Shown: positions 19,086 through 42,868 of the stretch, one piece after another | How the letters are laid out: every line of letters begins with the position of its first letter | Position numbering within the stretch: position 1 is the first letter of the stretch | Assembly: GCA_017462915.1 (NCBI GenBank) | Contig: JAFTQG010000044.1 | Coordinates: forward strand, 48,699 to 112,698 | Reading direction: 5' to 3' | DNA: 64,000 nucleotides | Origin: Prevotella sp. | GTDB lineage: Bacteria > Bacteroidota > Bacteroidia > Bacteroidales > Bacteroidaceae | The notes under the pieces: generated by a model | Told to the model about the DNA's origin: nothing | The model's database searches: none | The model's input: only the letters and a program-made list of their open reading frames with translations | Program-made: the position numbers and the translations under genes

Positions 19086-19152
19086 TTTATGCGGTTTGAC
19101 GGTTATAAGTTCACAGGAGAGATATCTTTGTATAACCGTCAAACCGCATAAA
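19086..19152. terminator. Perfect 22-bp hairpin between convergent genes (spacer family A)
   Basis: The arms 19086-19107 and 19131-19152 are perfectly complementary and contain GCGGTTTGACGGTT. The loop carries CAGGAGAGATATC. It lies between the PurF-like gene and the convergent DUF5103 gene and can serve both as a terminator. It is the simplest member of the CGGTT spacer family found also at 23.2, 32.7, 33.4, 35.2, 36.8, 40.6 and 41.9 kb. Confidence 0.7.
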
Positions 19153-19177
19153 CCGTATAATCACATAATAGCCAAAC

Positions 19178-20437
19178 CTATCGGCCTGTTTCACCGAAGC
19201 CGTACAACAGGTCGGTCCGTCCTCCCGTAGGGCGATAATAGAAGAGACACCCGTAGCGGTTCTCCGTTTGGTAGAAGTTGCCGTCGGAAGGGAGAACCGT
19301 TGTCTCTCTATCTTTCTGCTCCAGGAGATACTGGTACGAGTAGTAGCCCATCTTCAGCCTTACGGCACAGTGGTACATCCCCTGCTCCGGGTCATACTCC
19401 ATCTTGTATTGCGGAAGGGTCCTGTCCAGAGTCCATTGTCCATTCAGGTAGACATCGCCGTCAAAAGGAACTGGTGCCTTGTACGTGAAATGGCAGACGA
19501 AATACTCTGACTCTGTGTCGTTGTTACTGTTGTCCGTATTACGGATATAGAACGCTCCGTCGGCATCCTCGTCATAGATATAGTTAGGGCGAGGCTCGTC
19601 GGTATATAGCCAAACATGATAGTCCTTGCCGTCAAAGTCCGTATGGTCGACACCCATGGAGTTTCTGTGCAGGTCAAGATACTCGAATTTGCGGTACTCG
19701 TTCGTTGCCGGGAATATCAGGTCGCGGCAGTGTTGCCACGCCATCCCCTCGGCGTTGCGGAACGGCGCTCGGGATATTCTCCTCGCAGTGGACCAGCGGT
19801 TGTTCTGCATGACAATGCCCTTCACCTGCCGCTCCGGGTCCGTGACGCTGACCCCGTTGTATTGCAGCCTTACGTTCACCTGCTGGTACGACTTGTTGAA
19901 CCCAGCATCAGTGTTCGTCGTCATCTCGAGCCCCACGCCGAATTTTCTGTCCAGCACCATGAAGCAGCATCTTGCTACAGGCTTCCCTTCGTCGTCATCG
20001 ATCACCGTCAGCCTGTAGTTGCCCGACAACTTCAGCCTGCACAGGCTGTTGGGTATACGCAGCCTGTAGTGTGTATAGAGTTCCGCCGTGTTCAGCGATT
20101 CCTCGTAGTCGTCTATTGTCAGCCCGTTGTAGAAGCCGTCAATGTAGTCCGTCTCGAAAAGCCCTTGGCTAACGCTCCAGTCCGCCTCGCAGTGCTCTAT
20201 GTTATACGTATAGCGCCGATAGTTGTGCGACATGTCGTCAAACGCTATGTTGATAGCCTCCCCTTCGCCGATAGTGATAATTGGCATTCCGAGCCAGTCT
20301 TGTCCCGCCACGACCTGTAGCGTCCGTATCTCTGGCGACAGTATCTCATGGCGCTGCGCGCGCAATGCAGAGGGGAAAAACACCGATATGCTGGCGGCAA
20401 TAGTCATGATGGCAAGATGTCTTATTCCTTTTTTCAT
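19178..20437 (-). CDS. DUF5103 domain exported protein
   Basis: The protein is 419 residues from the ATG at 20437 (MKKGIRHLAIMTIAASISVF...ALRAQR). This start gives a proper signal peptide; the frame can be extended 23 codons upstream, but that would add a basic tail before it. The mature protein is beta-rich and matches the Bacteroidota DUF5103 family in its N-terminal block (EILSPEIRTLQVVAGQDWLG) and in the DGDVYLNGQWT region, which looks like a carbohydrate-binding or immunoglobulin-type sheet. Function is unknown. It is convergent with the PurF-like gene. Confidence 0.82.
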   Translation of the reverse strand: MKKGIRHLAIMTIAASISVFFPSALRAQRHEILSPEIRTLQVVAGQDWLGMPIITIGEGEAINIAFDDMSHNYRRYTYNIEHCEADWSVSQGLFETDYIDGFYNGLTIDDYEESLNTAELYTHYRLRIPNSLCRLKLSGNYRLTVIDDDEGKPVARCCFMVLDRKFGVGLEMTTNTDAGFNKSYQQVNVRLQYNGVSVTDPERQVKGIVMQNNRWSTARRISRAPFRNAEGMAWQHCRDLIFPATNEYRKFEYLDLHRNSMGVDHTDFDGKDYHVWLYTDEPRPNYIYDEDADGAFYIRNTDNSNNDTESEYFVCHFTYKAPVPFDGDVYLNGQWTLDRTLPQYKMEYDPEQGMYHCAVRLKMGYYSYQYLLEQKDRETTVLPSDGNFYQTENRYGCLFYYRPTGGRTDLLYGFGETGR

Positions 20438-20476
20438 TTTTTTCTTCTTTTTTGCCTTTTGCAGGCTAATCCGTTG

Positions 20477-20484
20477 CAAAGATA
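20477..20484 (-). promoter_or_regulatory. -7 box of the DUF5103 gene
   Basis: TATCTTTG on the minus strand, about 40 bp before the ATG. A second TATCTTTG at 20544-20551 could be an upstream promoter. Confidence 0.55.
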
Positions 20485-20717
20485 ATGCAACTCGAACGCA
20501 ATTCAAACTTGTTTGAAATTGCTGAGGTGCAGCTTATCTTCTGCAAAGATACGAAAATAAAATGACATATCGCCTGTATTTCCCCTTATCATAGACCATT
20601 CAGCGGCAGTTTTTATGGCATAGCTGTGGTTTAGTGTTTATAGGTTAATAACTCACAGTCGTCTAACCACATAACTGTACCCAGCCGTCCGCCTGCATCT
20701 TGCATGGGTAGGGAAAA

Positions 20718-20739
20718 GCAGGAAGCAACCGCTTCCTGC
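20718..20739. terminator. Hairpin in the guaA-DUF5103 gap
   Basis: GCAGGAAGC and GCTTCCTGC form a 9-bp stem with loop AACC, with CTTTTTCTTCTT on the plus side and TTTTCCC on the minus side. It lies about 80 bp past the guaA stop and probably ends guaA. The rest of 20485-20815 shows only promoter boxes. Confidence 0.6.
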
Positions 20740-20815
20740 ATCTTTTTCTTCTTATATGCAGTGGAGGTCGGCTGCTTCCTGTTTGATGATGTCATATTTG
20801 TGTACGTATGCTCTG

Positions 20816-22432
20816 TTATTCCCACTCGATCGTTGACGGCGGTTTTGAGGAAATGTCGTAGCATACGCGGTTGACTCCCTTTACCTTGTTTATTATCTCG
20901 TTGGAGCATTTTGCCATGAAATCGTAGGGGAGGTGTGCCCAGTCTGCCGTCATGGCATCGGTCGATGTCACGGCACGGAGAGCCACGGGATGTTCGTATG
21001 TGCGTTCGTCACCCATAACTCCTACGGAGCGTACGGTGGAGAGGAGTACGGTACCTGCCTGCCAGATTTGGTCGTATAGAGAGACTTCTATCTCTCCGTT
21101 CTCCATATCAGCGGGAACCCCTGCGGCGAGCACGGCGCGTGCATGTTCGCCTGAGAGCCTTGTCTTGTATGCACGCAGTCCGCGGATATAGATGTCATCG
21201 GCATCCTGGAGGATGCGCACTTTCTCTCGTGTGATATCTCCGAGGATACGTACGGCAAGTCCAGGGCCAGGGAAGGGATGGCGTGTGATGAGGTGTTCAG
21301 GCATTCCCATGGAGCGTCCGACGCGACGCACCTCATCCTTGAAAAGCCATTTGAGGGGTTCGCAGAGCGAGAGATGCATTTCTTCGGGGAGACCTCCGAC
21401 GTTATGGTGTGACTTGATGACTTTCCCGGTGATGTTGAGCGACTCGATGCGGTCAGGGTAAATGGTGCCCTGTGCGAGCCACTTGGCGTCCTTGATTTTC
21501 TTTGCCTCGGCGTTGAAGACTTCCACGAAGTCGCGTCCTATGATCTTGCGCTTCTGCTCGGGGTCTGTGACTCCAGCGAGGTCTGCGAAGAACTTCTCGC
21601 TTGCGTCTATGCCTATGACGTTAAGACCGAGGCACTTGTAGTCTTCCATTACATCGCGGAATTCGTTCTTGCGGAGCATACCATGGTCAACGAAAATACA
21701 TGTGAGGCGATCTCCGATGGCTTTGTTTAGGAGGACGGCGGCTACAGAGGAGTCTACGCCACCCGAGAGACCAAGGATGACGCGGTCTGTGCCTATCTGT
21801 GCTTTCAACTCGTTGACTGTCGTTTCAACGAAGGAGTCGGCGCTCCAATCCTGCCGTGAGCCACAGATATCGACGACGAAGTTTCGGAGTAGTTGTGTGC
21901 CTTGCACGGAGTGGAATACTTCGGGATGGAACTGCACGGCCCATACGGGTTTCTCGGTGGAGGCGTAGGCGGCGTACTGCACATCGGCGGTGGAGGCTAT
22001 GCATCGGCAGTCATTAGGTATGGCTGTGATGGAGTCGCCGTGCGACATCCATACCTGTGAGTTGTCGTCGAAGCCGGCGAAGAGCTTGTCGGTCTTGTCT
22101 ATGTAGGCGAGGTTTGCCCTGCCGTACTCCCGGGTATCGGTCTTCTCTACCTTTCCGCCGTTGGCATAGGAATAGTACTGAGCGCCGTAGCAGATACCGA
22201 GGACGGGAAGCCTGCCGACGAAGCGCGAGAGGTCGGGCTTGAAGCCTTCAGGATCGTGTACCGAGAACGGTGAGCCGGAGAGGATAACGCCTATGACGTC
22301 AGAGCCGTCCTCCGGGTACTTGTTGTAGGGCATGATCTCGCAGAATGTGTCAAGTTCGCGGACACGGCGGCCTATCAACTGTGTTGTCTGGCTGCCAAAG
22401 TCGAGGATGATAATCTTTTGCATTCGGTTCAT
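20816..22432 (-). CDS. guaA: GMP synthase (glutamine-hydrolysing)
   Basis: GuaA converts XMP to GMP using glutamine and ATP. The 538-residue protein has an N-terminal class I amidotransferase (LGICYGAQ with nucleophile Cys; [10 protein letters not shown] with the His and Glu). Next comes the ATP pyrophosphatase P-loop ([16 protein letters not shown]). The C-terminal dimerisation domain ends [15 protein letters not shown], the invariant GuaA tail. Its ATG overlaps the stop of the preceding nucleotidyltransferase gene by 4 bp; a second ATG three codons later (MQKIII) would also be a plausible start. Confidence 0.97.
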
Positions 22433-23205
22433 ATTTGATTGAGAAATTCTGTTGCGTCTCTGAGAGTATCGGGCTTGCCGACATCAAGCAGTCTCAGGTC
22501 TTCTTTCACGAGGCCTCTGACATCGTGTCTGGCGCAGATGTCAAGGTAGAAGTCCATGATGCTGAATCTTTCGGGCCATGGTGTCATCAGGGGCAGGAGT
22601 GTCTGTGAGAGGATGTGTATGCCTGAGAATGCGAACTTCCGCAGCGGGGCGGAGTGGAGCGTCAGGCTTTCGGGAGTCTTGCCTTGCTGGGCTTTAAGCT
22701 CGGGATATGGCGACTTTATCTCCCCTGTGGCGGTGTTAATCCATCCGGCAAGGCGCATGTCGCTGTCGAAAAGGAGGTATCGTGATGTCTTGCGCGGCGA
22801 GACAAGCAGTGTGGCTCCGTTACGGGTGTTTTGCCTGTAGAAGTCTTCAAGGTCAACATTTGAGAGGATGTCGACATTGTGTATGAGTATCGGTTCCTCC
22901 TTTTTTGCCGGATGAAACAGTGGTGCCGCTTTCCTGATGCCGCCGCCTGTGTCGAGGAGTGTCTCTGTCTCGTCGGAGAGTAGTATGTCTGATGCCCATC
23001 GTCCTCTCGTCGTCTCTATGAAATTGCGTATCTGACCGCTGTGGTGATGTATGTTGATGACGACGGTATTGCCTTCGGAGTCGACACGCTCAAGGATGCG
23101 TTGCAGCAGTGGCTTGTCTCCTACAGGTACGAGGGCCTTGGGAATGATGTCTGTCAGGGGTTTGAGCCGTGTGCCGAGACCTGCGGCGAAGATCATTATG
23201 TTCAT
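22429..23205 (-). CDS. Sugar-1-phosphate nucleotidyltransferase
   Basis: The 258-residue NTP_transferase protein has the signature [20 protein letters not shown] (G-x-G-T-R-L and the K of P-K-A-L) at residues 5-25. [11 protein letters not shown] carries the metal-binding Asp. The family activates sugar phosphates to NDP-sugars. The short length and the [10 protein letters not shown] region resemble MurU/mannose-1-phosphate uridylyl- or guanylyltransferase-like proteins; the sugar is not predictable. It is coupled to guaA by a 4-bp overlap. Confidence 0.85.
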
Positions 23206-23211
23206 TTTTAT

Positions 23212-23306
23212 ACGGTATATATGATTGTACGGTTATATGCGGTTGTGTGACTATGCGGTTACGGCAGGAGATATCCTTATAACTGTCAAAACCTTATAAC
23301 CGCACC
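23212..23306. repeat. Spacer family A copy between fbp and the nucleotidyltransferase gene
   Basis: ACGGTTATATGCGGTTG and ATGCGGTTACGG on one side face TTATAACTGTC and CTTATAACCGCACC on the other, around a GGAGATATCC core. It makes a long imperfect hairpin made of CGGTT-type units. Confidence 0.6.
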
Positions 23307-25280
23307 TTACTTCTTTATCTCGCGTTCCTTGATGAATCCATGGCGGTATGCGTAGAGGAGTTTCTGTAGATTGCTTATCTGCTCCCTCAGTTCCGCGCCC
23401 TTGTCTATATCGGCGACATGCATACGGCGGTTTGCCATCTCTATGATCTGTATTGTGGAGACGATGTCCGTACCTCGTAGCACGGCGTCTTCCGCACTTG
23501 TGAAGGGCTCGTGCTGCACGAGCTGGAAGCCACGGGAATGGTATACGAGGGTGTAGCCGGCTATGCCTGTCTCCTTGTGGTAGGCCTCGGAAAATCCGCC
23601 GTCGATGACCATCAGCTTTCCGTTGGCCTTTATGGGGTTCTCGCCGTTGGCGACATGTACGGGGACATGGCCGTTGATGATATGGCGGTTGGGGCCTGCA
23701 AGACCGAAGGCGTCCATTATGCCGTCGATGATCTTCTCATCGTCACGGAGCTTGAAGTAGTATCCTTTCTCCTCCTTGTGGGTTGCTTTGTCGGCGATGA
23801 AGTAGCGTTCGAATGTTGACATCTTGGACTTGTCGAATAGTGGGGAGTCCTTTCCGCACCACAGGTACAGGAAATAGTCTCGGGCATACTCCCGGTCTTC
23901 GGGTGTGGAGTCCTGCTGGAATGCTGAGCGTACAAGCATACCGATGTTGTGCATGAGTTCTTTGCCTTTCAGGTATGTGCCGGGCATTATCTCTACCTCT
24001 TTCAGTGTGCCGTCCTCCATCAGCGGTATTGATGCATGGAAGAGCAGATTGCCGTTGTATATGGCATACATGCAACCGTGGGATAGCATGAGACGGATAT
24101 GCTTCTGCAGTTTCTCTGAGACGCGGAATGAGTGGTGCAGGCGCTTCATCAACAGGCGTTCCTCGTCTGTGAGCGCGATGCCAGTGGGGAAGGTGGCGTA
24201 CTGCATCTTATATTCCTTGCCGTCGACACGGCAGGTGTTGGTTTCCAGATTGACAGTGGAGATGATGTCACGGTCCTCCATGTGCCAGTTAGGATGCTTG
24301 TGGAACAGTTCTGCCTCGAGCTTGAACTGTATTATTGATATCGCTTTGTGCATCATTGCCGTAAGGCGTCTCTGCTTCTCGTCGAGATTCGTATTGCCGT
24401 CGAGGATGATAGGCTCGAAACCTGTGCATGGGTCGTCGCTGTAATGCTCCATGGCGAATGTGGCAAGCGGCACGAGGTTAATGCCGTAGCCTTCCTCTAT
24501 GGTCGTAAGGTTGGCATATCTCAGGCAGATGCGTATAACGTGGCAGATGCATGCGTCATTGCCGGCTCCAGCGCCCATCCAGAGTATGTCGTGGTTGCCC
24601 CACTGTATATCCCAGGAATGGTAGTTTGTCAGGGTGTCCATGATGATGTGTGCTCCAGGGCCACGGTCGTAGATGTCTCCGAGTATGTGCAGCTGGTCAA
24701 TGGACAGACGCTGTATGACGTTGCAGATGGCTATGATGAAGTCGTCTGCACGCTGTGTGGATATGATTGTCTCGATGATCACATTGACATACGCGGCCTT
24801 GTTTTGGTCGTCCGTACGCTCATGGAGAAGCTCTTGGATGATGTACGAAAACTCCTCTGGAAGTGATTTCCTCACTTTGGAGCGTGTGTATTTCGAGCAT
24901 ACGTCGCGCAGTACGGAGACGAGCTGGTGCAGGGTGATGTGGTACCAGTCGCCGAGATCGTCTTCATTGGCCTTTACCAGCTCGAGTTTCTGCTCTGGAT
25001 AGTATATGAGTGTGCACAGTTCCTTTTTCTCCTGCTCACGGAGTGTGTTGCCGAATATCTCGTTAACCTTTCGCTTGATATTGCCAGAGGCATTCTTGAG
25101 GACATGCAAGAAGGCCTCGTGCTCGCCGTGTATGTCGGCAAGGAAATGCTCTGTGCTCTTGGGAAGGTTGAGTATGGCGGAGAGGTTTATGATCTCCGTC
25201 GCGGCTGATGATATGGTAGGGAAGTTACGCGCAAGCAGCTGCAGGTAGCGCATGTCTTTCTCTATTTCATTATTTGTCAT
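23307..25280 (-). CDS. fbp: Fructose-1,6-bisphosphatase class III
   Basis: This enzyme hydrolyses fructose-1,6-bisphosphate to fructose-6-phosphate in gluconeogenesis. The 657-residue length is typical of the class III (Firmicutes/Bacteroidota) metallophosphatase, not of the 330-residue class I. HFLADIHGEHEAF, LGDIYDRGP and WGNHDILWMGA are the calcineurin-like metal-binding blocks, and INGHVPVHVANGENP is the late conserved block. It is last of a minus-strand run with the two glycosyltransferase-like genes (20-bp spacing). Confidence 0.96.
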   Translation of the reverse strand: MTNNEIEKDMRYLQLLARNFPTISSAATEIINLSAILNLPKSTEHFLADIHGEHEAFLHVLKNASGNIKRKVNEIFGNTLREQEKKELCTLIYYPEQKLELVKANEDDLGDWYHITLHQLVSVLRDVCSKYTRSKVRKSLPEEFSYIIQELLHERTDDQNKAAYVNVIIETIISTQRADDFIIAICNVIQRLSIDQLHILGDIYDRGPGAHIIMDTLTNYHSWDIQWGNHDILWMGAGAGNDACICHVIRICLRYANLTTIEEGYGINLVPLATFAMEHYSDDPCTGFEPIILDGNTNLDEKQRRLTAMMHKAISIIQFKLEAELFHKHPNWHMEDRDIISTVNLETNTCRVDGKEYKMQYATFPTGIALTDEERLLMKRLHHSFRVSEKLQKHIRLMLSHGCMYAIYNGNLLFHASIPLMEDGTLKEVEIMPGTYLKGKELMHNIGMLVRSAFQQDSTPEDREYARDYFLYLWCGKDSPLFDKSKMSTFERYFIADKATHKEEKGYYFKLRDDEKIIDGIMDAFGLAGPNRHIINGHVPVHVANGENPIKANGKLMVIDGGFSEAYHKETGIAGYTLVYHSRGFQLVQHEPFTSAEDAVLRGTDIVSTIQIIEMANRRMHVADIDKGAELREQISNLQKLLYAYRHGFIKEREIKK

Positions 25281-25300
25281 AAGGCATCATATAGGTTATG

Positions 25301-26509
25301 TTATGTCGTTTCTTTTGATATGTTGAATTCATTCAGTTGTCTGTACAGTCTCCTTGCCGTCTTGCCGGATATCGGGTCAAGGGGCATATAGCCCAACGGG
25401 AGTTGCAGTCTCTCTGAGAGTATATGCATGACATGGGCACAGAAAGATTCCATGCCAAGCTTTCGTACCATGTTGCAGAAAATGTCTTCATCATACATGG
25501 AATACATTAGACGCTCGTATATGGACATGACAAGCACGAATGGAGGCTGCCATTCTTTGTTGTACTGGTTCTTCTCCAATATTTTACTTAATTTCAGCAG
25601 ATCCGTTATCAGTGCTGCGGTCTCTTGGGACGATGTGCATCCGCGGATTATGCCATGCTCCTTGTCGGATATATGGCCGTCGCTGATTGTAGACTTGACT
25701 TTGAAGCGTGCAGGTAAAGCGTCTACATGTATCGGTAGATGAAGAGACAGAGCCTTGGCACCAGACAGCAGTTCCTCCATTATGCCATGATCTATGGCGT
25801 ATACCTGGATATTCTTCCAGTTGTGGACGGAAAGCTGCTGCAACATATCTGGGTATTCCTGTGCCTGCGAATGTGCCGCAGTGGTATTCTGCACATGTTT
25901 CGCTTCGGCGTCTTGGCTTGCATGTCGCATATTTATAGCAGCAAGAAGAAGTGTCCATATACATTTCTCTTCCTTCTCGGAGAGTTTGTTGCGCTGAACA
26001 GTGTCGATGACCTTCTGGTATAAGGCGCGGAATGTCTCTGTTGTCTGCGGATATTCATTCTCGTTGCTTGGCCCAGGAATAAGTGCTACGCGTTTCTTCC
26101 AGCCCAGTTGTTTTATGTCTTCCAGTTCCTGTGACGATGTGGTATGCAAGACCATTGCCTTACGTATGGCAAGGAACTGGTAGGCAATGAGACTGGGCAG
26201 TTTCCTCTTCCAGAAATCAGCTTGAAGTTCTTTGGGAGATAGACCGTTGTGAGGTGAGAGGACAACGGGAATCCTGCTGCGCAGTGCCCATGATTCCACG
26301 ATGGCGGCCTTGAAACTCCAGCATCCATGTATATGGATAACATCCGGCTGCAGCTTCTCTATACGCCTGCAAAAGTCGGCGTTAGATATATTGCCGGAGA
26401 TTATATGTGTCTCTACAGTCTTTCCCATAACGACTTGAAGCATCTGGACAAACCTTGCGGCCTGTCCCATACTCTTCTTGAAGTTAGGTATGTAATGTAG
26501 AACTTTCAT
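25301..26509 (-). CDS. GT4-like glycosyltransferase with a degenerate C-terminal half
   Basis: The product is 402 residues. The N-terminal half reads as the acceptor domain of a GT-B family 4 enzyme: LHYIPNFKKSMGQAARFVQML, PDVIHIHGCWSFKAAIVESW, PVVLSPHNGLSPKEL, VLHTTSSQELEDIKQLGW, ALIPGPSNENEY. After about residue 145 the expected nucleotide-sugar domain (G-R-x-x-x-x-K-G-x-x-x-L and E-x7-E) is absent. In its place is a Lys/Glu/Gln-rich helical region ending in a 200-residue tail I cannot assign. It may be inactive, or use an altered site. It lies 19 bp after the GT2-like gene. Confidence 0.7.
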   Translation of the reverse strand: MKVLHYIPNFKKSMGQAARFVQMLQVVMGKTVETHIISGNISNADFCRRIEKLQPDVIHIHGCWSFKAAIVESWALRSRIPVVLSPHNGLSPKELQADFWKRKLPSLIAYQFLAIRKAMVLHTTSSQELEDIKQLGWKKRVALIPGPSNENEYPQTTETFRALYQKVIDTVQRNKLSEKEEKCIWTLLLAAINMRHASQDAEAKHVQNTTAAHSQAQEYPDMLQQLSVHNWKNIQVYAIDHGIMEELLSGAKALSLHLPIHVDALPARFKVKSTISDGHISDKEHGIIRGCTSSQETAALITDLLKLSKILEKNQYNKEWQPPFVLVMSIYERLMYSMYDEDIFCNMVRKLGMESFCAHVMHILSERLQLPLGYMPLDPISGKTARRLYRQLNEFNISKETT

Positions 26510-26528
26510 GCTGTAGAGTCAAGTCTGT

Positions 26529-27131
26529 TTATACAGTTACATGTCTGTATATTATATTGCGGAGTGACATGTCGTCGATGTAGCTCCGATGTAGGAATAT
26601 GATAGGAAAAAGTCCCGCATTCTCCTTGTTGAGATACAGTGTCTCGCGTTTTACCCCGTTTGTCCTGCACCAGCTTTTCAGCAGCTTCCTTACAGTCTTC
26701 TTATGCTTGTGGCGTTTAAAGAATCCGAGATGTCTGATATGCATGTCGCCCAGAATTAACGGCCTGTTTTCAGATAGCGGATTGCTTTCCAGAAAATCAC
26801 CGACTCTCTCAAGCCATTTCTCTGAATCTGGTGCAAATGAGGGCGGTATGATGATGACATGGTCATATTCGGCGGCCTTCACTCCAAGCAATATCTCTAT
26901 CTCCTCGCCCGTGACATATTGTGGTCGGTCGGGCAGATATGTCGAACGGAGATTCTTATATTCTGCATAGAACGGCTCAAGAATATCCTTTATGTCCCCC
27001 TTCATCGTTTCACGGACAGCTACAACTTCAAATCCGGCATCGTACTGTTGGGACAGAACCATGGGTAGTGTCTCACGTAGTACGATGTCATTGTCGTTGG
27101 TGATTATTATTATTGAAATGTTCTTGCTCAT
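26529..27131 (-). CDS. GT2-like protein lacking the DxD motif
   Basis: The 200-residue protein starts like a family 2 glycosyltransferase (NISIIIITNDNDIVLRETLPMVLSQQY...FEVVAVRE). At the place where GT2 enzymes show D-x-D it has VIIIPPSFAPDSEKW. The metal-binding acidic pair is thus missing, and the protein is shorter than the usual GT2. It may be a non-catalytic relative that works with the adjacent GT4-like protein. It follows lysA by 42 bp. Confidence 0.65.
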   Translation of the reverse strand: MSKNISIIIITNDNDIVLRETLPMVLSQQYDAGFEVVAVRETMKGDIKDILEPFYAEYKNLRSTYLPDRPQYVTGEEIEILLGVKAAEYDHVIIIPPSFAPDSEKWLERVGDFLESNPLSENRPLILGDMHIRHLGFFKRHKHKKTVRKLLKSWCRTNGVKRETLYLNKENAGLFPIIFLHRSYIDDMSLRNIIYRHVTV

Positions 27132-27173
27132 ATACTTCTTGGTCAGGAAGTTATATCCATGACCTAAACGCGT

Positions 27174-32692: not shown

Positions 32693-32797
32693 GTTTTTTT
32701 ACGGTTTTACGGTCTTTCGGTCATACGGATATTGGTTTCTGGTTATAGGAAGAGCAATCTCCGTTTAACCGTCAAACCATATAACCGCTTAACCGCA
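32693..32797. repeat. Spacer family A copy between hisA and hisH
   Basis: ACGGTTTTACGGTCTTTCGG units face TTTAACCGTCAAACC and ATAACCGCTTAACCGC units. The core GGTTATAGGAAGAGCAATC is shared with the copies at 33.4, 35.2, 36.8, 40.6 and 41.9 kb. Because hisH and hisA are co-directional, the hairpin would be transcribed inside the his mRNA. Confidence 0.7.
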
Positions 32798-33391: not shown

Positions 33392-33514
33392 TGTTGCGGT
33401 TTTTACGGTTTTACGGTTGTGCGGTTGTGCGGTCTTTCGGATATCGGTTTTTGATTATAGGAAAAGCATTCTCCACATAACCGCCTAACCGTATAACCGC
33501 AAGACCTCACCGTC
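33392..33514. repeat. Spacer family A copy upstream of hisH
   Basis: ACGGTTTTACGGTTGTGCGG units face CATAACCGCCTAACCGTATA units around the core GATTATAGGAAAAGCATTCT. It forms a long imperfect hairpin. Confidence 0.65.
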
Positions 33515-34261: not shown

Positions 34262-34382
34262 GGTTGCTTTGTGGGTTGTTTAGTCGTTTGGTTGTTTGGT
34301 CGTTTAGTTGTTTGGTTGATGGCCGTTTGGGATAGCATATAACTAAACCACTAAACAACCAGGCGACCAAACCACTAATTGT
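34262..34382. repeat. Spacer family B: TTGTTTAGT/ACTAAACAA facing arms
   Basis: GGTTGTTTAGTCGTTTGG and GTTTAGTTGTTTGG units on the left face ACTAAACCACTAAACAACC and CGACCAAACCACTAA on the right, around a loop with GGGATAGCATATAAC. The repeat has the same architecture as family A, with a different unit. Confidence 0.65.
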
Positions 34383-35156: not shown

Positions 35157-35292
35157 TTTGTTCGGTTTTGTTCGGTTGTGCGGTCTTACGGTTTCTACGG
35201 TCTTACGGTTCTACGGATATTGTTTTTTGGTTATAGTAAGAGTAATCTCCGCCTAACCGTATAACCGTCAAACCGCTAAACCGAAAAAACGC
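35157..35292. repeat. Spacer family A copy between pnuC-like and esterase genes
   Basis: Units GTTCGGTTGTGCGGTC and TTACGGTTCTACGG face CGCCTAACCGTATAACCG and TCAAACCGCTAAACCG. The core is GGTTATAGTAAGAGTAATC. Confidence 0.7.
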
Positions 35293-36300
35293 CTAACCGC
35301 CACGCTTGAACACCGTGTCGAGAAAGTGCACCGTATACTCGACGGTAGGAGTGAACCACGGATGGAAGAACCAGAATGTGTGCAGCGGCGCATCATGCTT
35401 ATGGACCTCGTGGTATATGCCATACGTGTCAAGCTTCCCGATGAGTTCCTCCTTGCCGTCGGAATAGCGCGGAAGCTGGCTGTTGATGAAGCATACCGGA
35501 GCAGACCTCTGTGAGACCCATGCCACTGGCGATGCCTCTATCCAGTTTTCCCTCGCGTCTTCATACAACCCTCCGAGCCATTGCGCCGTGAGCGGCATCT
35601 TGTGCTGCCGCCGCATCCTCTCCTCGGTGTCTTCTATGTTGTGTCGGGAGATGAATGTCGAGCATCCGTCCATGCTCACCACAGCCTGTATGTCGCTGCT
35701 GTGCTGTGCCCATTCGCCGTTCCCCTCATGGCGCGCCGACCCGTTTGTCATGCCCACAAGCGTGGCGAGATGACCTCCGGCAGAGCATCCGGACATGGCA
35801 ATCCTTGTGGTGTCTATGCCGTACTGTGCCGCATGAGCCCGTGCCCAGCGTACAGCCGTCTTCAGGTCGTGGAGTGCGGCAGGATAGACGGCTTCCGGTC
35901 TGAGGCGGTACTCCACAGCTATCGTGACATACCCCTTAGCAGCAATAGCCATAGCCATGGGCACCTGCAGGGATTTGTCACCCGAGTTCCATCCTCCTCC
36001 ATGAACCATAATCAGTGCCGGACGTCGCTTCTTGTCCGATGGACGGTAGACATTCAGGCGCAGCTCGCGGTCGCCGTATGGTGTGCCGTGCAGGGTAGTG
36101 TACACCACATCCTCGTATGCGGTGACGCCTTTCGGCAGTTCCTGCCTCGCCGGCTCTATCTCCGGATGGTATTTCTTGTTGTGGAGATAGGTGGAGAGGA
36201 TTGTATACGACGTGTCTCTCGGCACTTGCACATTCTGAGCCTGCATACCGATATGGCAATATGCAAGCAGGAATGATATGACGAGACACAGCTTTTTCAT
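35293..36300 (-). CDS. Exported alpha/beta-hydrolase esterase
   Basis: From the ATG at 36300 the protein is 335 residues with signal peptide MKKLCLVISFLLAYCHIGMQAQ. The open frame extends 43 codons further, but it would run through the -7 box at 36323. MVHGGGWNSGDK is the oxyanion-hole motif of the carboxylesterase/BD-FAE family, and MSGCSAGGHLATLVG carries the nucleophile Ser (G-x-S-x-G variant G-C-S-A-G). The His is probably in HKHDAPLHTFWFFHP. It probably removes acyl groups from exported substrates such as acetylated glycans. Confidence 0.85.
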   Translation of the reverse strand: MKKLCLVISFLLAYCHIGMQAQNVQVPRDTSYTILSTYLHNKKYHPEIEPARQELPKGVTAYEDVVYTTLHGTPYGDRELRLNVYRPSDKKRRPALIMVHGGGWNSGDKSLQVPMAMAIAAKGYVTIAVEYRLRPEAVYPAALHDLKTAVRWARAHAAQYGIDTTRIAMSGCSAGGHLATLVGMTNGSARHEGNGEWAQHSSDIQAVVSMDGCSTFISRHNIEDTEERMRRQHKMPLTAQWLGGLYEDARENWIEASPVAWVSQRSAPVCFINSQLPRYSDGKEELIGKLDTYGIYHEVHKHDAPLHTFWFFHPWFTPTVEYTVHFLDTVFKRGG

Positions 36301-36322
36301 GAAATCTTTGTATTTTTGGCTG

Positions 36323-36330
36323 CAAAGGTA
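36323..36330 (-). promoter_or_regulatory. -7 box of the esterase gene
   Basis: TACCTTTG on the minus strand, 23 bp before the ATG at 36300. Confidence 0.65.
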
Positions 36331-36505
36331 CTGAAAAAAAACGATATTGGCAAAATATATTAAATAAATTCGCGTGTGCGCTGAAATTATTAGTCTGTAT
36401 ACGCGCAGAATGCCGTTTCGTACATGCAAAATGCTCTGTCATCGCATTGCGGAATGTCGTGCGCCGAGATTTGGGCGAGGTGGTCGTAACCGAAGACGAA
36501 GTTCA

Positions 36506-36580
36506 GGGTCACCTTTCATCCTGCAAATGGTGACACTTAATGTGGTGAAAGGTGACCCTTTGCCTTGTAAAAGGTGACCT
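36506..36580. repeat. GGTGACC inverted repeat, copy 2
   Basis: GGGTCACCTTTCA faces TGAAAGGTGACCCTT, followed by another AAAAGGTGACCTT. It lies in the 567-bp gap between the esterase and mfd, upstream of the mfd promoter. Confidence 0.6.
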
Positions 36581-36701
36581 TCTGTTAACCCTTTTGCCTA
36601 TAACAGAATAAATACTTGTAATACAGCGACTAACATGATAATACCAAGAAGTCACTTGAAGCTACAGGCAACTCTGTATAATGCCGTTCGTCCGGCATTT
36701 T

Positions 36702-36733
36702 TTTGCATATTAGAAAATATTATTGTAACTTTG
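36702..36733 (+). promoter_or_regulatory. Promoter of mfd
   Basis: TTTG ends near 36705 and TAACTTTG is at 36726-36733, spacing about 20 bp. The predicted leader of about 128 nt contains the spacer repeat at 36749-36860. Confidence 0.65.
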
Positions 36734-36748
36734 CAGCCGATTACCACG

Positions 36749-36860
36749 GTTGTATGCGGGTTTGCGGTTATACGGTCAGGCGGTTATGCGGAGAGAACCC
36801 TTCCTATAGCCCAAAACCAATATCCGTATAACCGCAAGACCGCACAACCGTACATAACCC
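36749..36860. repeat. Spacer family A copy inside the mfd leader
   Basis: GCGGGTTTGCGGTTATACGG and AGGCGGTTATGCGGAG face CCGTATAACCGCAAGACCGC and ACAACCGTACATAACCC. It is in inverse orientation to the copies at 32.7-35.2 kb. Confidence 0.7.
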
Positions 36861-36867
36861 ACAGAAA

Positions 36868-39800
36868 ATGAAGGAAAACAAGCTCCTTTCGCGTTATACT
36901 AAATCCGCACAGGCAGGTGCTTTAGCCAGGACATTGGCCAAAAGTTCCGTACATTCGGTCTTCCTGGAAGGTCTGTCGTGCTCAGCCGTCCCCTTGATGC
37001 TTTCCGCTGCCAACAGCAGGCTTGCGGAGATGGAGAGCGCGTCGGGTGACGACAGGGCCTGTGGAGGCATGATGCTCTTTGTGCTCAACGATGCTGACGA
37101 GGCAGGGTATATGTATCACGACCTGTGCCAGTTGGCCGGCGAGGGGAAGGCTCTGTTTTTCCCTTCGTCATACAAGCGTGCCGTGAAATACGGGCAGCAC
37201 GATCCGGCAAACGAGATTTTAAGGACGGAGGTCTTGGCAAGACTTTCCGAGAGGCAGCGTCTCGGGGCCGTTGCCGCTGGCGAGGGGCTGATGGTCGTGA
37301 CATACCCGGAGGCGTTGGCGGAACTCGTTGTGTCGCAGCGTGATGTGGAGACGCGCAAGATCTCGCTGGCGCGCGGACAGCAGATAGATATCGTCGATGT
37401 GGAGCATCAGCTCCGCGAGCTCGGCTTCCGGCAGGTGGACTATGTCTACGAGCCGGGGCAGTTTGCCGTGAGAGGTTCCATAGTCGATGTCTTCTCGTTC
37501 TCTTCAGAGCTGCCCTTACGACTTGATTTCTTTGACGATGAGATAGATACGATACGTACCTTCGAGGTCGAGAGCCAGCTTTCCAAGGACAGGAAGGAGC
37601 AGGTAGTCATTGTGCCGCAGCTCTCAGGCATAGAGACGGAAAAGCGTCCGCTTACGTCTTTCCTTCCCGACGGCACTCCGCTGATTGCCAAGGACGTGGA
37701 CTTCGTGCTTGAAAGGGTGGGGCAGGTCTTTGAGGAAGGCTTCTCAAAGCAGGCTCTCGCGGAGCGTCTCGCCAATGCCACGGAGATGGAAGAGGCGCAT
37801 ATCATGGAGGAGATGCGCCGTGAGTCGCAGCTGTGCACGCAGACGGTGATGCTTGCCGAGCTGTCGAGGATGACGACCGTGGAGTATGGCATACAGGTGC
37901 AGGACGGCAGGAGATATGATGCAAGGATGACGTTTCATATTGTCCCGCAGCCGTTGTTCCACAAGAATTTCGGACTTCTTCGCGATACGCTCCGCCAATA
38001 TGCCGATGCAGGGTACCGCATAGGCATACTCGCCGACAGTGAAAAGCAGGTGGAGAGACTTGATGACATACTTTCTGCCGAAACAGATAACAACTTCTCT
38101 GACAAGAGGATAAGCATAAATAGTGTAGGCTATACTTTACATGAAGGCTTCATCGATAACGACCTGAAGATGTGCCTGTTTACAGACCATCAGATTTTCG
38201 ACAGATTCCATAAGTACAACCTTAAGTCCGACAAGGCGCGTCATGGCAAGATGGCTCTTACGATGAAGGAGCTGCAGGAGATGGAGCCAGGGGATTTCAT
38301 CGTGCATGTCGACTTCGGCATAGGGAAATTCGCCGGTCTGGTGCGCGTGCCTGTGGGCAACTCTTATCAGGAGGTCATCCGCATCGTCTATCAGAACAAC
38401 GACAAGGTGGATGTGTCGATACATTCCCTGTACAAGATAAGCAAATACCGCAGCAGTACAACCGGCGAGCCGCCGCGTCTGTCACATCTCGGCACCGGGG
38501 CATGGGAGCGTCTGAAGGAGCGTGCGAAGAAGAAGATCAAGGATATAGCGCGCGACCTTATCAGGCTTTACGCCAAGCGCCGTCACGAGAAAGGGTTCAG
38601 CTTCTCGCCCGACTGCTATCTCCAGAATGAGCTTGAGGCCTCGTTCCTTTATGAAGACACTCCAGACCAGCTGAAGGCAACGCAGGAGGTGAAGCACGAT
38701 ATGGAGTCTTCACGTCCCATGGACAGACTCGTATGCGGCGATGTCGGATTCGGCAAGACGGAGGTTGCCATGCGTGCCGCCTTCAAGGCTGCCTGCGACA
38801 GCAAGCAAGTGGCTGTGCTGGTGCCGACTACAGTCCTTGCGTTCCAGCATTACAAGACGTTCAGCAAGCGTCTCGAAGGGCTGCCGGTGAGAGTGGATTA
38901 TCTGTCCCGTGCGCGCACGGCGAAGCAGACATCGGCTGTGCTGAAAGACCTGGCGGAGGGAAAGATAGACATCCTTGTAGGCACTCACAAGCTCATCGGC
39001 AAGTCTGTCAAGTGGAAAGACCTCGGACTGCTGATTATAGACGAGGAGCAGAAGTTCGGCGTCTCTACAAAGGAGAAGCTGCGCCAGGTGAAGACAAACA
39101 TCGACACGCTGACGATGTCCGCGACCCCTATACCGCGCACCTTGCAGTTCTCGCTGATGGGAGCAAGAGACATGAGCATCATGCGCACCCCTCCTCCCAA
39201 CCGCCATCCTATACATACGGAACTGGGGACATACGGCCACGAGATAATAGCCGACGCCATCGGCTTTGAGATGTCTCGCAACGGACAGGTGTTTTTCGTC
39301 AATCCGCGTATATCCAACCTTGTGGAAATCGCGCGCCTGATAGAGAAGCATGTGCCAGACTGCAGGGTCGCCATAGGCCACGGGCAGATGAATCCTGACG
39401 AACTGGAGAAGATCATCATGGGTTTCATGAACCATGACTACGATGTCCTGCTGTCCACGACCATTGTCGAGAACGGCATAGACATTCCCAATGCCAACAC
39501 TATCATCATAAACGATGCACACAAGTTCGGCCTGAGCGACCTCCACCAGATGCGCGGACGTGTAGGACGAGGCAACAAGAAGGCGTTCTGCTACCTGCTT
39601 TCTCCGCCGTTGTCGTATCTTTCCCATGACGCACGGACGCGTCTGGAGGCTTTGGAGACCTTCTCCGACCTCGGCAGCGGGTTCTCGCTTGCCATGCAGG
39701 ACCTTGACCTCCGCGGGGCAGGAAACCTGCTCGGCTCGGAGCAGAGCGGTTTCATGGAAGACCTCGGATACGAGACGTACCAGAAGATCCTGAAGCAGGC

Positions 39801-40383
39801 TGTGCAGGAGCTGAAGAACGAGGAGTTTCAGGACCTGCAGGAGGAGCAGGTCCTTGAGGCGCAGACGGAGGGACGTGACATGGAGAGCCTGGAGTTTGTC
39901 GACGATTGCGGTGTGGAGAGCGACCTCGAGATGTTCTTCCCAGACCTTTATGTTCCGGGGAGTGCGGAGCGTATGCTTCTCTACCGCGAGCTTGACCAGA
40001 TAGAGACAGACAGGGACTTGGCAGAGTACCGCAGGAGGCTGGAGGACAGGTTCGGCCCCGTTCCCCATGAGGGCGAGGAGCTCATGTCCGTCGTCATGCT
40101 CCGCCGCCTTGGCAAACGTCTTGGCTGTGAGAAGATTGTGCTGAAGCAGGGACTTATGCAGCTGCATCTCCTGCGTGACCAAAGCAGCCCGTATTACAAG
40201 ACAACGGCCTTCGGACGCATTATCGGGTATGCCACATCCAATCCGCGCCGCTGCCAGTTCAAGACGGTGAACGGTTCTCCGCGCATTGTCATTTCAAGCG
40301 TCCCTACTGTCGGCGATGCCCTGAAGGTGCTGTCGGAAATAGCAGGCAGGGAGAGGGCTGGAGCGGGCAAGGCCGGTGTGTAA
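36868..40383 (+). CDS. mfd: Transcription-repair coupling factor
   Basis: Mfd removes RNA polymerase stalled at lesions and recruits UvrA/UvrB. The protein is 1171 residues with the usual order: UvrB-like N-terminal region (about 1-350), the RNA-polymerase-interaction domain near 470-560 (GDFIVHVDFGIGKFAGLVRV), and the RecG-like helicase with Walker A CGDVGFGKTEVA near residue 621, DEEQ near 724, SATPIPRTLQFS and QMRGRVGRG. The C-terminal TRCF domain is at about 1010-1130. The leader carries a spacer repeat. Confidence 0.97.
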   Translation: MKENKLLSRYTKSAQAGALARTLAKSSVHSVFLEGLSCSAVPLMLSAANSRLAEMESASGDDRACGGMMLFVLNDADEAGYMYHDLCQLAGEGKALFFPSSYKRAVKYGQHDPANEILRTEVLARLSERQRLGAVAAGEGLMVVTYPEALAELVVSQRDVETRKISLARGQQIDIVDVEHQLRELGFRQVDYVYEPGQFAVRGSIVDVFSFSSELPLRLDFFDDEIDTIRTFEVESQLSKDRKEQVVIVPQLSGIETEKRPLTSFLPDGTPLIAKDVDFVLERVGQVFEEGFSKQALAERLANATEMEEAHIMEEMRRESQLCTQTVMLAELSRMTTVEYGIQVQDGRRYDARMTFHIVPQPLFHKNFGLLRDTLRQYADAGYRIGILADSEKQVERLDDILSAETDNNFSDKRISINSVGYTLHEGFIDNDLKMCLFTDHQIFDRFHKYNLKSDKARHGKMALTMKELQEMEPGDFIVHVDFGIGKFAGLVRVPVGNSYQEVIRIVYQNNDKVDVSIHSLYKISKYRSSTTGEPPRLSHLGTGAWERLKERAKKKIKDIARDLIRLYAKRRHEKGFSFSPDCYLQNELEASFLYEDTPDQLKATQEVKHDMESSRPMDRLVCGDVGFGKTEVAMRAAFKAACDSKQVAVLVPTTVLAFQHYKTFSKRLEGLPVRVDYLSRARTAKQTSAVLKDLAEGKIDILVGTHKLIGKSVKWKDLGLLIIDEEQKFGVSTKEKLRQVKTNIDTLTMSATPIPRTLQFSLMGARDMSIMRTPPPNRHPIHTELGTYGHEIIADAIGFEMSRNGQVFFVNPRISNLVEIARLIEKHVPDCRVAIGHGQMNPDELEKIIMGFMNHDYDVLLSTTIVENGIDIPNANTIIINDAHKFGLSDLHQMRGRVGRGNKKAFCYLLSPPLSYLSHDARTRLEALETFSDLGSGFSLAMQDLDLRGAGNLLGSEQSGFMEDLGYETYQKILKQAVQELKNEEFQDLQEEQVLEAQTEGRDMESLEFVDDCGVESDLEMFFPDLYVPGSAERMLLYRELDQIETDRDLAEYRRRLEDRFGPVPHEGEELMSVVMLRRLGKRLGCEKIVLKQGLMQLHLLRDQSSPYYKTTAFGRIIGYATSNPRRCQFKTVNGSPRIVISSVPTVGDALKVLSEIAGRERAGAGKAGV

Positions 40384-40439
40384 ACGATGAGAAAAATGCC
40401 GTTTGGAATGATTCAACGGTAAAAAATCCTGTAAAACTG

Positions 40440-40470
40440 TTGCACATCTCATCGAAAAGTTGTACTTTTG
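40440..40470 (+). promoter_or_regulatory. Promoter of tRNA-Ser
   Basis: TTG at 40440-40442 and TACTTTTG at 40463-40470, with 20-bp spacing. Start is predicted near 40477, about 44 bp before the mature tRNA. Confidence 0.7.
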
Positions 40471-40520
40471 CATCCGATTTGCAGTCATATATATTTATCG
40501 TCTGTACACAGAACAGCCAA

Positions 40521-40607
40521 GGAGAGATGCCGGAGTGGTCGATCGGGACGGTCTCGAAAACCGTTGTACTCTTACGGGTACCCAGGGTTCGAATCCCTGT
40601 CTCTCCG
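40521..40607 (+). tRNA. tRNA-Ser(CGA)
   Basis: The acceptor stem GGAGAGA (40521-40527) pairs with TCTCTCC (40600-40606). The anticodon loop CTCGAAA, flanked by ACGGT and ACCGT, gives anticodon CGA. A long variable arm (TTGTACTCTTACGGGTACC) marks it as a class II serine tRNA, and the T arm is CAGGG-TTCGAAT-CCCTG. The 3' CCA is not encoded. Confidence 0.95.
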
Positions 40608-40629
40608 CTTTTTGATGTTAACTTGCAAC

Positions 40630-40692
40630 GGTTATGCAGTTTGACGGTTGTACGGTTTGACGGTTGTACGGTTATGCGGAGATTACTCTCCT
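40630..40692. repeat. Spacer family A copy, one arm only
   Basis: Tandem GTTTGACGGTTGTACG units run into GCGGAGATTACTCTCCTAT, the family core. The second CGGTT arm is replaced by the 21-bp repeats that follow. Confidence 0.65.
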
Positions 40693-40780
40693 ATAACTCA
40701 TAACTCATAGCTTATAACTCATAACTCATAGCTTATAACTCATAACTCATAGCTTATAACTTATAACTCATAACTCATAA
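40693..40780. repeat. 21-bp tandem repeat (family C)
   Basis: Three identical 21-bp units start at 40693, 40714 and 40735 (each runs ATAACTCATAACTC and then ATAGCTT), followed by degenerate ATAACTCATAACC units. A shorter run of the same unit is at 42020-42052. Confidence 0.8.
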
Positions 40781-40784
40781 CCTA

Positions 40785-40857
40785 CACCCCAAACGACCAA
40801 ACCACTAAACGACCAAACCACCAAACCACTAAACAACCAAACCACCAAACCACCAAA
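40785..40857. repeat. Spacer family B tract before manA
   Basis: Tandem AACGACCAAACCACTAAAC and AACCAAACCACCAAACC units run right up to the manA ATG, so they form its 5' leader. Confidence 0.7.
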
Positions 40858-41901
40858 ATGTATCCGCTTTTATTTGAACCGAATCTGCACACTGTAGTCT
40901 GGGGAGGGAAGAGACTTGAGGAATGGAAAGGAATGGCAAAGAGCGGTTCGCCTGTCGGTGAATCCTGGGAAGTCAGCTGTGTCCCCTCATCCACATCTGT
41001 CATATCCAACGGAAAATGGAAAGGCAGGCTGCTTACAGATATAATCAAGGAACATCCCCACGAGATACTCGGAGAGAAAGTTGCCGTGAAATACGGCAAC
41101 GAGCTGCCGCTGCTTGTGAAATTCATCGATGCCGAACGCGACCTGTCTATCCAGGTGCATCCTGATGACGCCATGGCGCAGCGTGAACACGGCAAGATGG
41201 GGAAGAGCGAGATGTGGTACATCATCGACGCCAAGCCGGGAGCATACCTCTATGCAGGGTTCAGTGAACGCCTTACTCCGGAAGAGTATGCCCGGAAAGT
41301 CGCGGACGGGACAATATGCGGAAGCCTTGCACGACACGAGGTGCACAAGGGAGACGTGTTCTATCTCCCTGCCGGCAGAGTCCACGCCATCTGTGGCGGA
41401 ATACTCCTTGCCGAGGTGCAGCAGTCGTCCGATGTGACTTACCGCATATTCGACTATAACCGTCCGGGGATGGACGGCAAGCCGCGCGAACTGCATACAG
41501 ACCTTGCCTCCAAGGCTCTCGACTTCGAGGTGCTGGACCAATACCGCACGGTCTACGACGATGACGCGCATCGCGCCAATCATTGCATAGACTCCCCGTA
41601 TTTCAATGTACGTGTGGTGGACATTGAAGCGCCGTTCCATCGCAACCTCCTCAAGTATGATTCATTCATAATAACAATGTGCCTGAAAGGCGACTGCAAG
41701 ATACGGATGCGCACGCCTTCGTCTGAGGAGCACGAGATAACGCTGAAGGAAGGCCATTCAAGCCTTATCCCCGCAGCGATAGCCGACTATGACGTCATCC
41801 CGCTGGACGGCAAGACACTGCTGCTTGACGCCTTCATCGACAACAAGGACCGCTCTCTGCTGTCCATGGCGACAAGATTCCTGCATATTACAGACAAGTA
41901 G
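40858..41901 (+). CDS. manA: Class I mannose-6-phosphate isomerase
   Basis: ManA interconverts mannose-6-phosphate and fructose-6-phosphate. The zinc protein is 347 residues. It starts MYPLLFEPNLHTVVWGGKRL, with SIQVHPDDAMAQREHGKMGKSEMWYII near residues 95-121 (zinc-binding Gln, His and Glu). AGRVHAICGG carries a later zinc His and EVQQSSDVTYRIFDYNR the catalytic Arg region. It supplies mannose units for GDP-mannose or glycan pathways, possibly linked to the mannosyl-type transferase at 33515. Confidence 0.94.
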   Translation: MYPLLFEPNLHTVVWGGKRLEEWKGMAKSGSPVGESWEVSCVPSSTSVISNGKWKGRLLTDIIKEHPHEILGEKVAVKYGNELPLLVKFIDAERDLSIQVHPDDAMAQREHGKMGKSEMWYIIDAKPGAYLYAGFSERLTPEEYARKVADGTICGSLARHEVHKGDVFYLPAGRVHAICGGILLAEVQQSSDVTYRIFDYNRPGMDGKPRELHTDLASKALDFEVLDQYRTVYDDDAHRANHCIDSPYFNVRVVDIEAPFHRNLLKYDSFIITMCLKGDCKIRMRTPSSEEHEITLKEGHSSLIPAAIADYDVIPLDGKTLLLDAFIDNKDRSLLSMATRFLHITDK

Positions 41902-42019
41902 GCGGTTGCGTACGGTTGCGTACGGTTTGACGGTTGTACGGTTGTACGGTCGTGCGGTTTGACGGTTGCGTACGGTTATGCGGTTATGCGGTTTGTCGGT
42001 TTTACGGAGATTACTCTCC
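41902..42019. repeat. Spacer family A copy after manA
   Basis: Tandem GGTTGCGTACGGTT, TGTACGGTTGTACGG and TTATGCGGTTATGCGG units, ending in the core ACGGAGATTACTCTCCTAT. As at 40630-40692, only the CGGTT arm is present. Confidence 0.7.
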
Positions 42020-42864: not shown

Positions 42865-42868
42865 TATA

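Follow-up and report, generated by a model that had tools for sequence, protein, structure and literature searches.

Modular palindromic cassettes between stop and start codons in a Prevotella lineage, and their replacement in a sister species

Introduction

Pneumococcal BOX elements (boxA-B-C) are modular and cyanobacterial STRR heptamers are short-unit tandem repeats; both are intergenic and vary in unit number. Here, we describe a family of palindromic cassettes that lie between genes in a stretch of 64,000 nucleotides of a Prevotella sp. genome (assembly GCA_017462915.1, contig JAFTQG010000044.1, positions 48,699 to 112,698 of the forward strand; hereafter the window) and elsewhere in the same genome. 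The original prediction, drawn from the sequence of the window, underrated these elements, which are modular, occur genome-wide, can be replaced and have positions set by stop and start codons.

According to the consulted portion of PMC12306157, 446 of 4,072 repetitive extragenic palindromes (REPs), against 260 of 496 in a previous collection, are located within 15 nt of a stop codon, and REPs at most 15 nt from a stop codon stall ribosomes (Liang 2015, as cited there). Protection of mRNA and effects on ribosomes have been proposed for REP-type repeats in the consulted parts of PMC3733652 and PMC3116915. TAACTGA heptamers located just upstream of start codons are described, in the sections of MacGregor 2015 (PMC4679880) at hand, from Beggiatoaceae, Cyanobacteria and five Bacteroidetes, and a role in translation is proposed for them. 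Bacteroidetes lack Shine-Dalgarno (SD) sequences, and the extracts of PMC6847099 available to us state that low structure and an A at -3 aid initiation.

Results

Read in the direction of the genes, a cassette follows the order stop codon, arm of GGTT-type 8-mers, conserved core, arm of AACC-type 8-mers, ATG. The arms belong to families F1 (CGGTTnnn/AACCGnnn), F2 (GGTTTTAGGTTTTTGG/AACCTACAACC) and F3 (GGTTGTTTAGTCGTTT/AACCAAACAACTAAAC), and the right side is sometimes lengthened by AACTCAT 7-mers. Cores include c1 (CGGAGATTACTCTTCCTATAACC, at times with CAAAAACCAATATCCG), c2 (GGTTAATTACC), c3 (CTATTNCGGCTATNNMGGCTATTCCGGCTATC) and rarer ones. Chimeric cassettes combine arms of different families (F1-c1-F3 at C30:57941, F3-c3-F1 at L153:3065), and some copies are near-perfect palindromes (19065 in the window, C15:9041 in the sister species, L156:8172). 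A separate repeat of ~78 nt, element B (ACAAAGTTCCGATTAAGCGAGAACAG...GAACTTCGAGCGAAGCTC), is an imperfect palindrome inserted into cassettes either way round (42056-42132 and 42925-43001 in the window; also in L001, L104, C43:22786 and C30:124995), and its 19-nt end has 13 matches in a 706-kb sample of the sister. By eye, and not through a formal terminator scan, right arms are A/C-rich and, between codirectional genes, generally reach the ATG with no T run.

The original prediction had placed arms of (A/G)CGGTT(n) units at 19.1, 23.2, 32.7, 33.4, 35.2, 36.8, 40.6 and 41.9 kb of the window. All eight are present, and its description of a hairpin-forming family of intergenic spacers with varying unit number was borne out. 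The AACCG second arm that it reported occurs in most copies, whereas those at 40.6 and 41.9 kb carry AACTCAT 7-mers followed by AACCAAAC/AACCACTA 8-mers. Two cassettes with other arm sequences (34262-34382 and 42865-43051) had been overlooked.

The window belongs to genome G000 (2.93 Mb in 59 contigs, completeness 99.97%). Three successive AACCGnnn units, counted with at most two mismatches and with overlapping matches included, gave 390+470 = 860 matches genome-wide, compared to 4+4 = 8 for the reversed control pattern. The predicted core is likewise real, as CGGAGATTACTCTTCC with at most two mismatches has 37 matches in the genome and its control has 0. Matches lie on many contigs, and the proposed clustering within 24 kb was therefore not upheld. 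Clusters of at least three exact units numbered 40 in the initial 461 kb examined, and 39 of them were intergenic.

Layout was scored in 629 kb of this genome, pooled with 432 kb of the sister genome. The former comprises C30, C29 and C43 (397 kb), picked through core matches, the window, and 20 further stretches, of which 19 were centred on earlier matches and one lies beside the window; sister contigs were likewise picked through matches. Genes were called with a home-made script trained on long open reading frames, and an arm required three exact GGTT or AACC seeds. Among 327 codirectional gaps of 40-420 nt, a GGTT arm was followed by an AACC arm in 34, the AACC arm stood alone in 44 and the GGTT arm in 8, the reverse order occurred in 0, and 241 had no arm. 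Hence, every codirectional gap with both arms (34/34) was inward-facing. Both arms were found in 5 of 40 convergent gaps (GGTT only, 6; AACC only, 1; none, 28) and in 3 of 41 divergent gaps (AACC only, 2; none, 36). Shuffled sequences, one shuffle per gap, contained 3 arms in total.

Furthermore, the arms adjoin the codons. The GGTT arm starts a median of 6 nt past the stop (n=42; quartiles 3-13.5), and the AACC arm ends a median of 8.5 nt ahead of the start (n=78; quartiles 5-26). Where a gap contains a promoter-like motif, the arms mostly run from stop to promoter or from promoter to start, as seen by eye with a loose motif. Arm-bearing codirectional gaps of 40-420 nt numbered 20 of 123 in C30, C29 and C43; the window together with its flank had 9 of 30, and the 706-kb sister sample had 58 of 209.

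Cores proved strongly oriented with respect to the genes. In codirectional gaps, sense and antisense copies numbered 20:0 for c1 (binomial p 1.9e-6), 19:1 for c3 (p 4e-5), 4:0 for c4 and 6:1 for c2; the ratio was 13:3 for the 7-mer arrays and 23:7 for F3 arrays (2 more run in both directions), and the inserted element B was at 5:6. A first count of c1 in our genome, with at most three edits and any gap length, gave 11 sense copies and 1 antisense copy. Copies do occur in both orientations on the contig, as originally reported; relative to genes, however, nearly all cores read one way. The core at 23.2 kb seems to read the opposite way and is too degenerate for this count. A promoter reading of c1 was not favoured since the core was found in 20 of 327 codirectional and 4 of 40 convergent gaps, and in only 1 of 41 divergent gaps.

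We then compared gaps with those of the sister SC0317_S2_2 (G100, the same genome as G113), which aligns to the window at 82-95%. Of 327 gaps of 25-900 nt searched from our genome, 53 were paired with the sister and 39 fell within the length limits of the folding test. Gap identity was taken as matches divided by the longer length, so that gain and loss of units count too. Median identity was 0.56 in 24 arm-bearing gaps and 0.84 in 15 armless gaps, and identity below 0.60 was found in 15 of the 24 versus 1 of the 15 (C43:73651 was scored as armless despite F3/F2-like arms by eye, and its reassignment would sharpen this contrast). Folding reached z < -2 in 22 of the 24 arm-bearing gaps in our genome, in 16 in the sister and in 16 in both; the respective counts for the armless gaps were 5, 6 and 5.

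In at least 8 of the 24 gaps, by eye, the arm family had changed while the GT-then-AC layout was kept (window 35157, 36742 and 40608; C43:38630, C43:63898, L143:4910, L143:7607 and L145:2997, of which L143:7607 and L145:2997 are convergent). Several of these gaps retain their GGTT/AACC ends and flanks, and the sister sequence still folds at z < -2 in 5 of the 8. The presence of another cassette of like layout in the sister's gap suggests that layout is kept while sequence is replaced. What persists is the layout, that is, strong folding in both species (16/24), arm polarity and core orientation.

The original prediction took hairpin pairing to be the selected feature. In nine retained sister gaps, chosen by eye, 37 pairs were broken compared to 39.0 +/- 4.0 under random placement of substitutions (p=0.36), and 3 double changes still paired compared to 1.8 expected (p=0.26). 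Among 19 F1/F1 copies, native arms were no stabler than cross-copy mixes (mean residual -0.70 kcal/mol, p=0.25). We therefore found no selection at the level of single base pairs, and the arms seem to be complementary mostly through the consensus that their units have in common. In the larger sets of mixed families, native pairs did come out ahead (c1, n=33, p=0.015 and 0.0007; c3, n=28, p=0.06 and 0.04); this may reflect the pairing of like arm families together with some almost perfect palindromes, and a weak effect is possible. The prediction had been staked on copies elsewhere in the genome and on pairing kept in close relatives: the elements were found genome-wide and in relatives, whereas conservation of pairs was not above chance.

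Core c1 is amplified in both species (37 matches in ours, 17 in the sister) and has 0-4 matches in 21 other genomes of the same search, in which one further entry was the sister genome again. AACCG matches numbered 522 in the sister (control 11) and 59 in the metagenome-assembled genome (MAG) NALB_7861_17 (control 2), and were at background in Palleniella muris (8; control 7) and P. intestinalis (7; control 14), the latter with 0 of 7 modules in 200 kb. Among 299 genomes of the genus, 16 had at least 20 exact AACC(N4)x4 matches (ours and the sister included; one of the 16, G162, has 12 control matches), as did 9 among 198 of the order (ours included; G099 has 38 control matches); both counts were made by eye. 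The 100 control matches of our own genome in this survey are ascribed to F3 arrays.

The same layout with other cores was seen in G053, G004 and G131. Of the 17 loci inspected, out of 20 targeted in G053 and G004, several had the layout and others were uninformative through poor gene calls. Stretches chosen blind to hits within the contig in G131, G290, G053, G457 and G293 contained 3 codirectional gaps with both arms (2 in G131, one being 978 nt, and 1 in G053), 10 with the AACC arm only, 2 with the GGTT arm only, and 1 two-armed divergent gap (G053); G290 yielded 25.7 kb of small contigs and carries no weight. The density of the architecture is therefore low outside this lineage. Control genome G103 had 1 AACC arm among 68 codirectional gaps. 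An apparent enrichment in G034 was set aside, most listed matches being tandem repeats of 27-29 bp or wider spacing, a different thing. Separately, G105, a MAG from horse faeces, carries arrays of AACCGnnTAATCG-type 8-mers (33 matches, control 2), possibly an independent amplification.

Within the window, the convergent gap at 19065-19177 holds an F1-type cassette (no strand assigned) that forms a long palindrome (TATGCGGTTTGACGGTTATA / TATAACCGTCAAACCGCATA; minimum free energy -53.6), and the sister holds a diverged F1-type hairpin of 75 nt there. On the reverse strand, F1 cassettes are located at 23206-23306 (codirectional genes, degenerate core), 32693-32797 (core c1 at 32748-32763) and 33392-33514 (diverged core c1), each kept in the sister, and at 35157-35292 (core c1 at 35236-35251), where the sister has an F2 cassette instead. 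The F3 cassette at 34262-34382, also on the reverse strand, has arms GGTTTGGTC.../AACCAAACAACTAAAC and faces unlike sequence in the sister.

On the forward strand, the F1 cassette at 36742-36867 occupies a 5' untranslated segment from a promoter-like TAACTTTG to the ATG; the promoter region is conserved in the sister and the cassette is swapped for an F2 one. Upstream of a promoter-like motif, repeated AAAGGTGACCTTTT-like palindromic motifs were noted at 36500-36580, which may represent a different, older family since similar motifs occur in P. muris and P. intestinalis. A composite cassette on the same strand (40608-40857) follows a tRNA-Ser and ends at an ATG, with an F1 arm (40629-40673), core c1 (40677-40692), AACTCAT 7-mers (~40692-40781) and an F3 array (~40787-40857); the sister has a 100-nt F2 cassette. 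Candidatus Minthosoma equi, of another Bacteroidales genus, has an AACTTAT 7-mer array right before an ATG, shortly upstream of a manA-like gene, and it resembles the window's AACTCAT array at 40692-40781. The tRNA-Ser (anticodon CGA; 40521-40608, forward strand, ARAGORN) lies directly upstream of the cassette and was the sole match in the window with Rfam 15 at gathering score (RF00005, 40521-40607, 55.2 bits). Whereas the cassette adjoins this tRNA, in P. muris and P. intestinalis the tRNA is followed, by eye, by a hairpin with a T tail.

The gene at 40858-41901, which we take to be mannose-6-phosphate isomerase-like (manA-like), is 86-88% identical to its counterparts in P. muris, P. intestinalis and MAG NALB_7861_17, and 97% identical to that of the sister over residues 107-347. 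In P. muris and P. intestinalis, the gap that follows the manA-like gene is an ordinary one and contains a promoter-like motif. In the window, a second composite cassette, again forward and ending at an ATG (41902-42285), consists of a GGTT arm (41903-42001), c1 (42005-42020), AACTCAT 7-mers, element B (42056-42132) and an F3 array (~42137-42278); in the sister, B is inverted within the GGTT arm. The last one (42865-43051, forward) combines an F2 arm, element B (42925-43001) and an F3 array ahead of the ATG, and no cassette was recognised in the sister's 79-nt gap. Two other repeats were noted in passing: a stretch of ~75-95 nt at 20475-20570, upstream of a promoter-like motif, with 24 places in the sister among the matches listed, and a tandem array of ~22-bp units (GATAAAAGGTGACGGTTGACAC) in a convergent gap (C29:57753-57911).

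Discussion

On balance, we consider it probable, though by no means assured, that these are modular palindromic cassettes located in untranslated segments of mRNA, where slippage and recombination through the arms drive their turnover, with a role for the core on the sense strand. They would constitute a non-coding palindromic superfamily of a Prevotella/Palleniella-like lineage, in which two inward-facing arms of degenerate 8-mers, from at least three unit families, surround one of several conserved cores. Each cassette would fill an untranslated stretch, which may be the interval between the stop and start codons of codirectional genes, the segment separating a stop codon from the promoter that follows, or the leader between a promoter and its start codon. 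Slippage would add and remove units. Whole arms, cores or cassettes would pass from gap to gap, with recombination or template switching at the common GGTT/AACC arms as the likeliest route, without a resident Y1 transposase. Since nearly all cores are sense-oriented, their action, or the selection on them, would concern the transcribed strand; this orientation is the strongest hint of a role at the RNA level. Layout, occurrence throughout the genome, replacement between the two species and orientation are observed; we infer that the gaps are transcribed, that exchange is mediated by the arms, and that there is such an RNA-level role.

Several observations weigh against this reading. For none of the exchanges was a donor copy traced. 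When three exact seeds are required, 52 of the 86 codirectional gaps that carry arms are one-armed; many gaps scored with the AACC arm only do hold a degenerate or F3 left arm by eye, as the script needs exact seeds. Extending the limit to 1,200 nt adds one gap with the reverse arm order (1,112 nt), one convergent gap with an AACC-GGTT-AACC series, and one lone GGTT arm near a start. The sense bias of c1 is not absolute, since an antisense copy lies in a 618-nt gap (C43:50130), beyond the 420-nt limit. In addition, element densities are inflated by the non-random choice of stretches in both genomes, and start sites are approximate given the way genes were called.

The first alternative, which we hold to be possible but doubtful, is that the repeats are purely neutral or selfish filler without function, expanded by slippage and by replication errors that create palindromes at any site where neither genes nor promoters are affected. 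The tendency of the repeats to occupy sequence that is neither gene nor promoter (by eye), the lack of detected conservation at the level of base pairs, and the patchy amplification in the genus (16/299 genomes with at least 20 matches, by eye) are consistent with it. It leaves unexplained, however, the core orientations of 20:0 and 19:1, given 5:6 for element B, and the zero outward-facing arm pairs in 327 codirectional gaps.

We regard as rather unlikely a model in which the hairpin couples translation: with its base at stop and start, the stem would hide the initiation region, and a ribosome terminating upstream would open it, bringing translation of the second gene into line with that of the first. 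Arms adjoining the stop (median 6 nt) and the start (8.5 nt) suit this model, and the REP effect near stop codons reported in the consulted portion of PMC12306157 offers a precedent. In silico, the unpaired fraction of the 25 nt before the ATG rose from 0.51 to 0.63 in 19 tight gaps with both arms when a ribosome was simulated on the stop, and was 0.44 with a mid-gap mask instead; a gain above 0.1 was predicted in 10 of these 19 versus 16 of 190 armless gaps (Fisher p 7e-6). Such a gain was predicted in only 2 of 12 looser two-armed gaps, 13 of 46 with the AACC arm only and 3 of 12 with the GGTT arm only. Also opposed to coupling are base-pair conservation no better than chance, cassettes without an upstream cistron (36742, 40608) or in convergent gaps, and 8 of 24 sister gaps that fold no better than z -2. 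To a similarly low degree, we entertain a stronger version of the cassette reading, in which an inherited gap layout of GT-rich arm, sense core and AC-rich arm would have its content exchanged in full for unrelated cassettes by a system that acts on intercistronic RNA segments, has its own machinery and serves to tune or couple the neighbouring genes.

Less plausible still is that the AACC, AACTCAT and AACCAAAC arrays serve as G-poor, unstructured leaders that aid SD-independent initiation, possibly by binding S1 or another RNA-binding protein, with the GGTT arm as a by-product. Sense AACC arms do stop just short of the ATG, 7-mer and F3 arrays are mostly sense (13:3 and 23:7), and the TAACTGA heptamers and SD-less initiation features, as given in the parts of PMC4679880 and PMC6847099 consulted, are precedents. 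Nevertheless, leaders would explain neither the sense-oriented cores nor the GGTT arms right after stops, including those in convergent gaps that lack a start codon, and the predicted unpaired fraction is 0.51 in gaps with both arms versus 0.60 in armless ones (0.65 with the AACC arm only).

Very improbable, in our view, is an origin as healed breaks, in which a polymerase adding G-strand repeats would extend both 3' ends and a head-to-head join would leave a GGTT arm, a junction (the core) and an AACC arm. Inward polarity is also expected at fused telomeres, and polarity, degenerate short tandem units and the like layout with unrelated cores in G053 and G004 agree with such an origin, but conserved sense-oriented cores are unexpected at junctions. 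Lastly, mobilisation as REP/REPIN elements by a RAYT (Y1) transposase is hardly tenable: many-copy intergenic palindromes close to stops recall it, yet the PF01797 profile, present in 12 of 27 genomes searched, has 0 matches in our genome (99.97% complete), the sister and G101, and a resident origin of this kind was rejected, barring a diverged transposase that escapes the profile.

Returning to cassettes exchanged through their arms, if this reading is true, a sizeable share of the intergenic space in one lineage of gut bacteria would consist of interchangeable modules whose turnover far outpaces that of the adjacent genes and which are still laid out with reference to stop and start codons. 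It would also provide a natural experiment on what has to lie between two genes in bacteria that lack Shine-Dalgarno sequences, and on how repeat families spread without a resident Y1 transposase. In the literature searched, from which subscription papers were largely absent, we found no description of this cassette family in Prevotella.

The elements belong with the intergenic palindromic and tandem repeats and are distinct from REPs. BOX and STRR elements, as generally known, differ from the present cassettes, which have other unit sequences, inward arms running from stop to start and sense cores. Like the REP, BIME and REPIN elements of enterobacteria and pseudomonads, the cassettes are short, many-copy intergenic palindromes near stops, and as stop-proximal extragenic palindromes they fold at z < -2 in 22 of the 24 element gaps of our genome; unlike them, they have arms made of a variable number of tandem degenerate 8-mers, interchangeable cores and arms, and no Y1/RAYT gene. 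The GTAG/CGTC tag of REP/REPIN elements stands at one end of a 20-40 bp palindrome, and for the cassettes no fixed end was defined at which such a tag might lie. The portion of PMC4596501 consulted describes a repeat of Porphyromonas gingivalis, also in Bacteroidales, that joins a miniature inverted-repeat element (MITE) to tandem units. MITEs have terminal inverted repeats of fixed sequence and duplicate their target site, whereas the inverted arms here vary in length and family, come in several arm and core families, and showed no fixed ends, although these were not formally sought. The TAACTGA repeats, as far as the consulted sections of PMC4679880 go, share with the cassettes forward short direct repeats near starts, a patchy presence in distant taxa and changes that are mostly indels of whole units. 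The units seen in the cassettes are AACCGnnn, AACCAAAC and AACTCAT. The cassettes differ from the TAACTGA repeats in the complementary arm behind the upstream stop, in the conserved core, and in the replacement of one family by another in the sister species.

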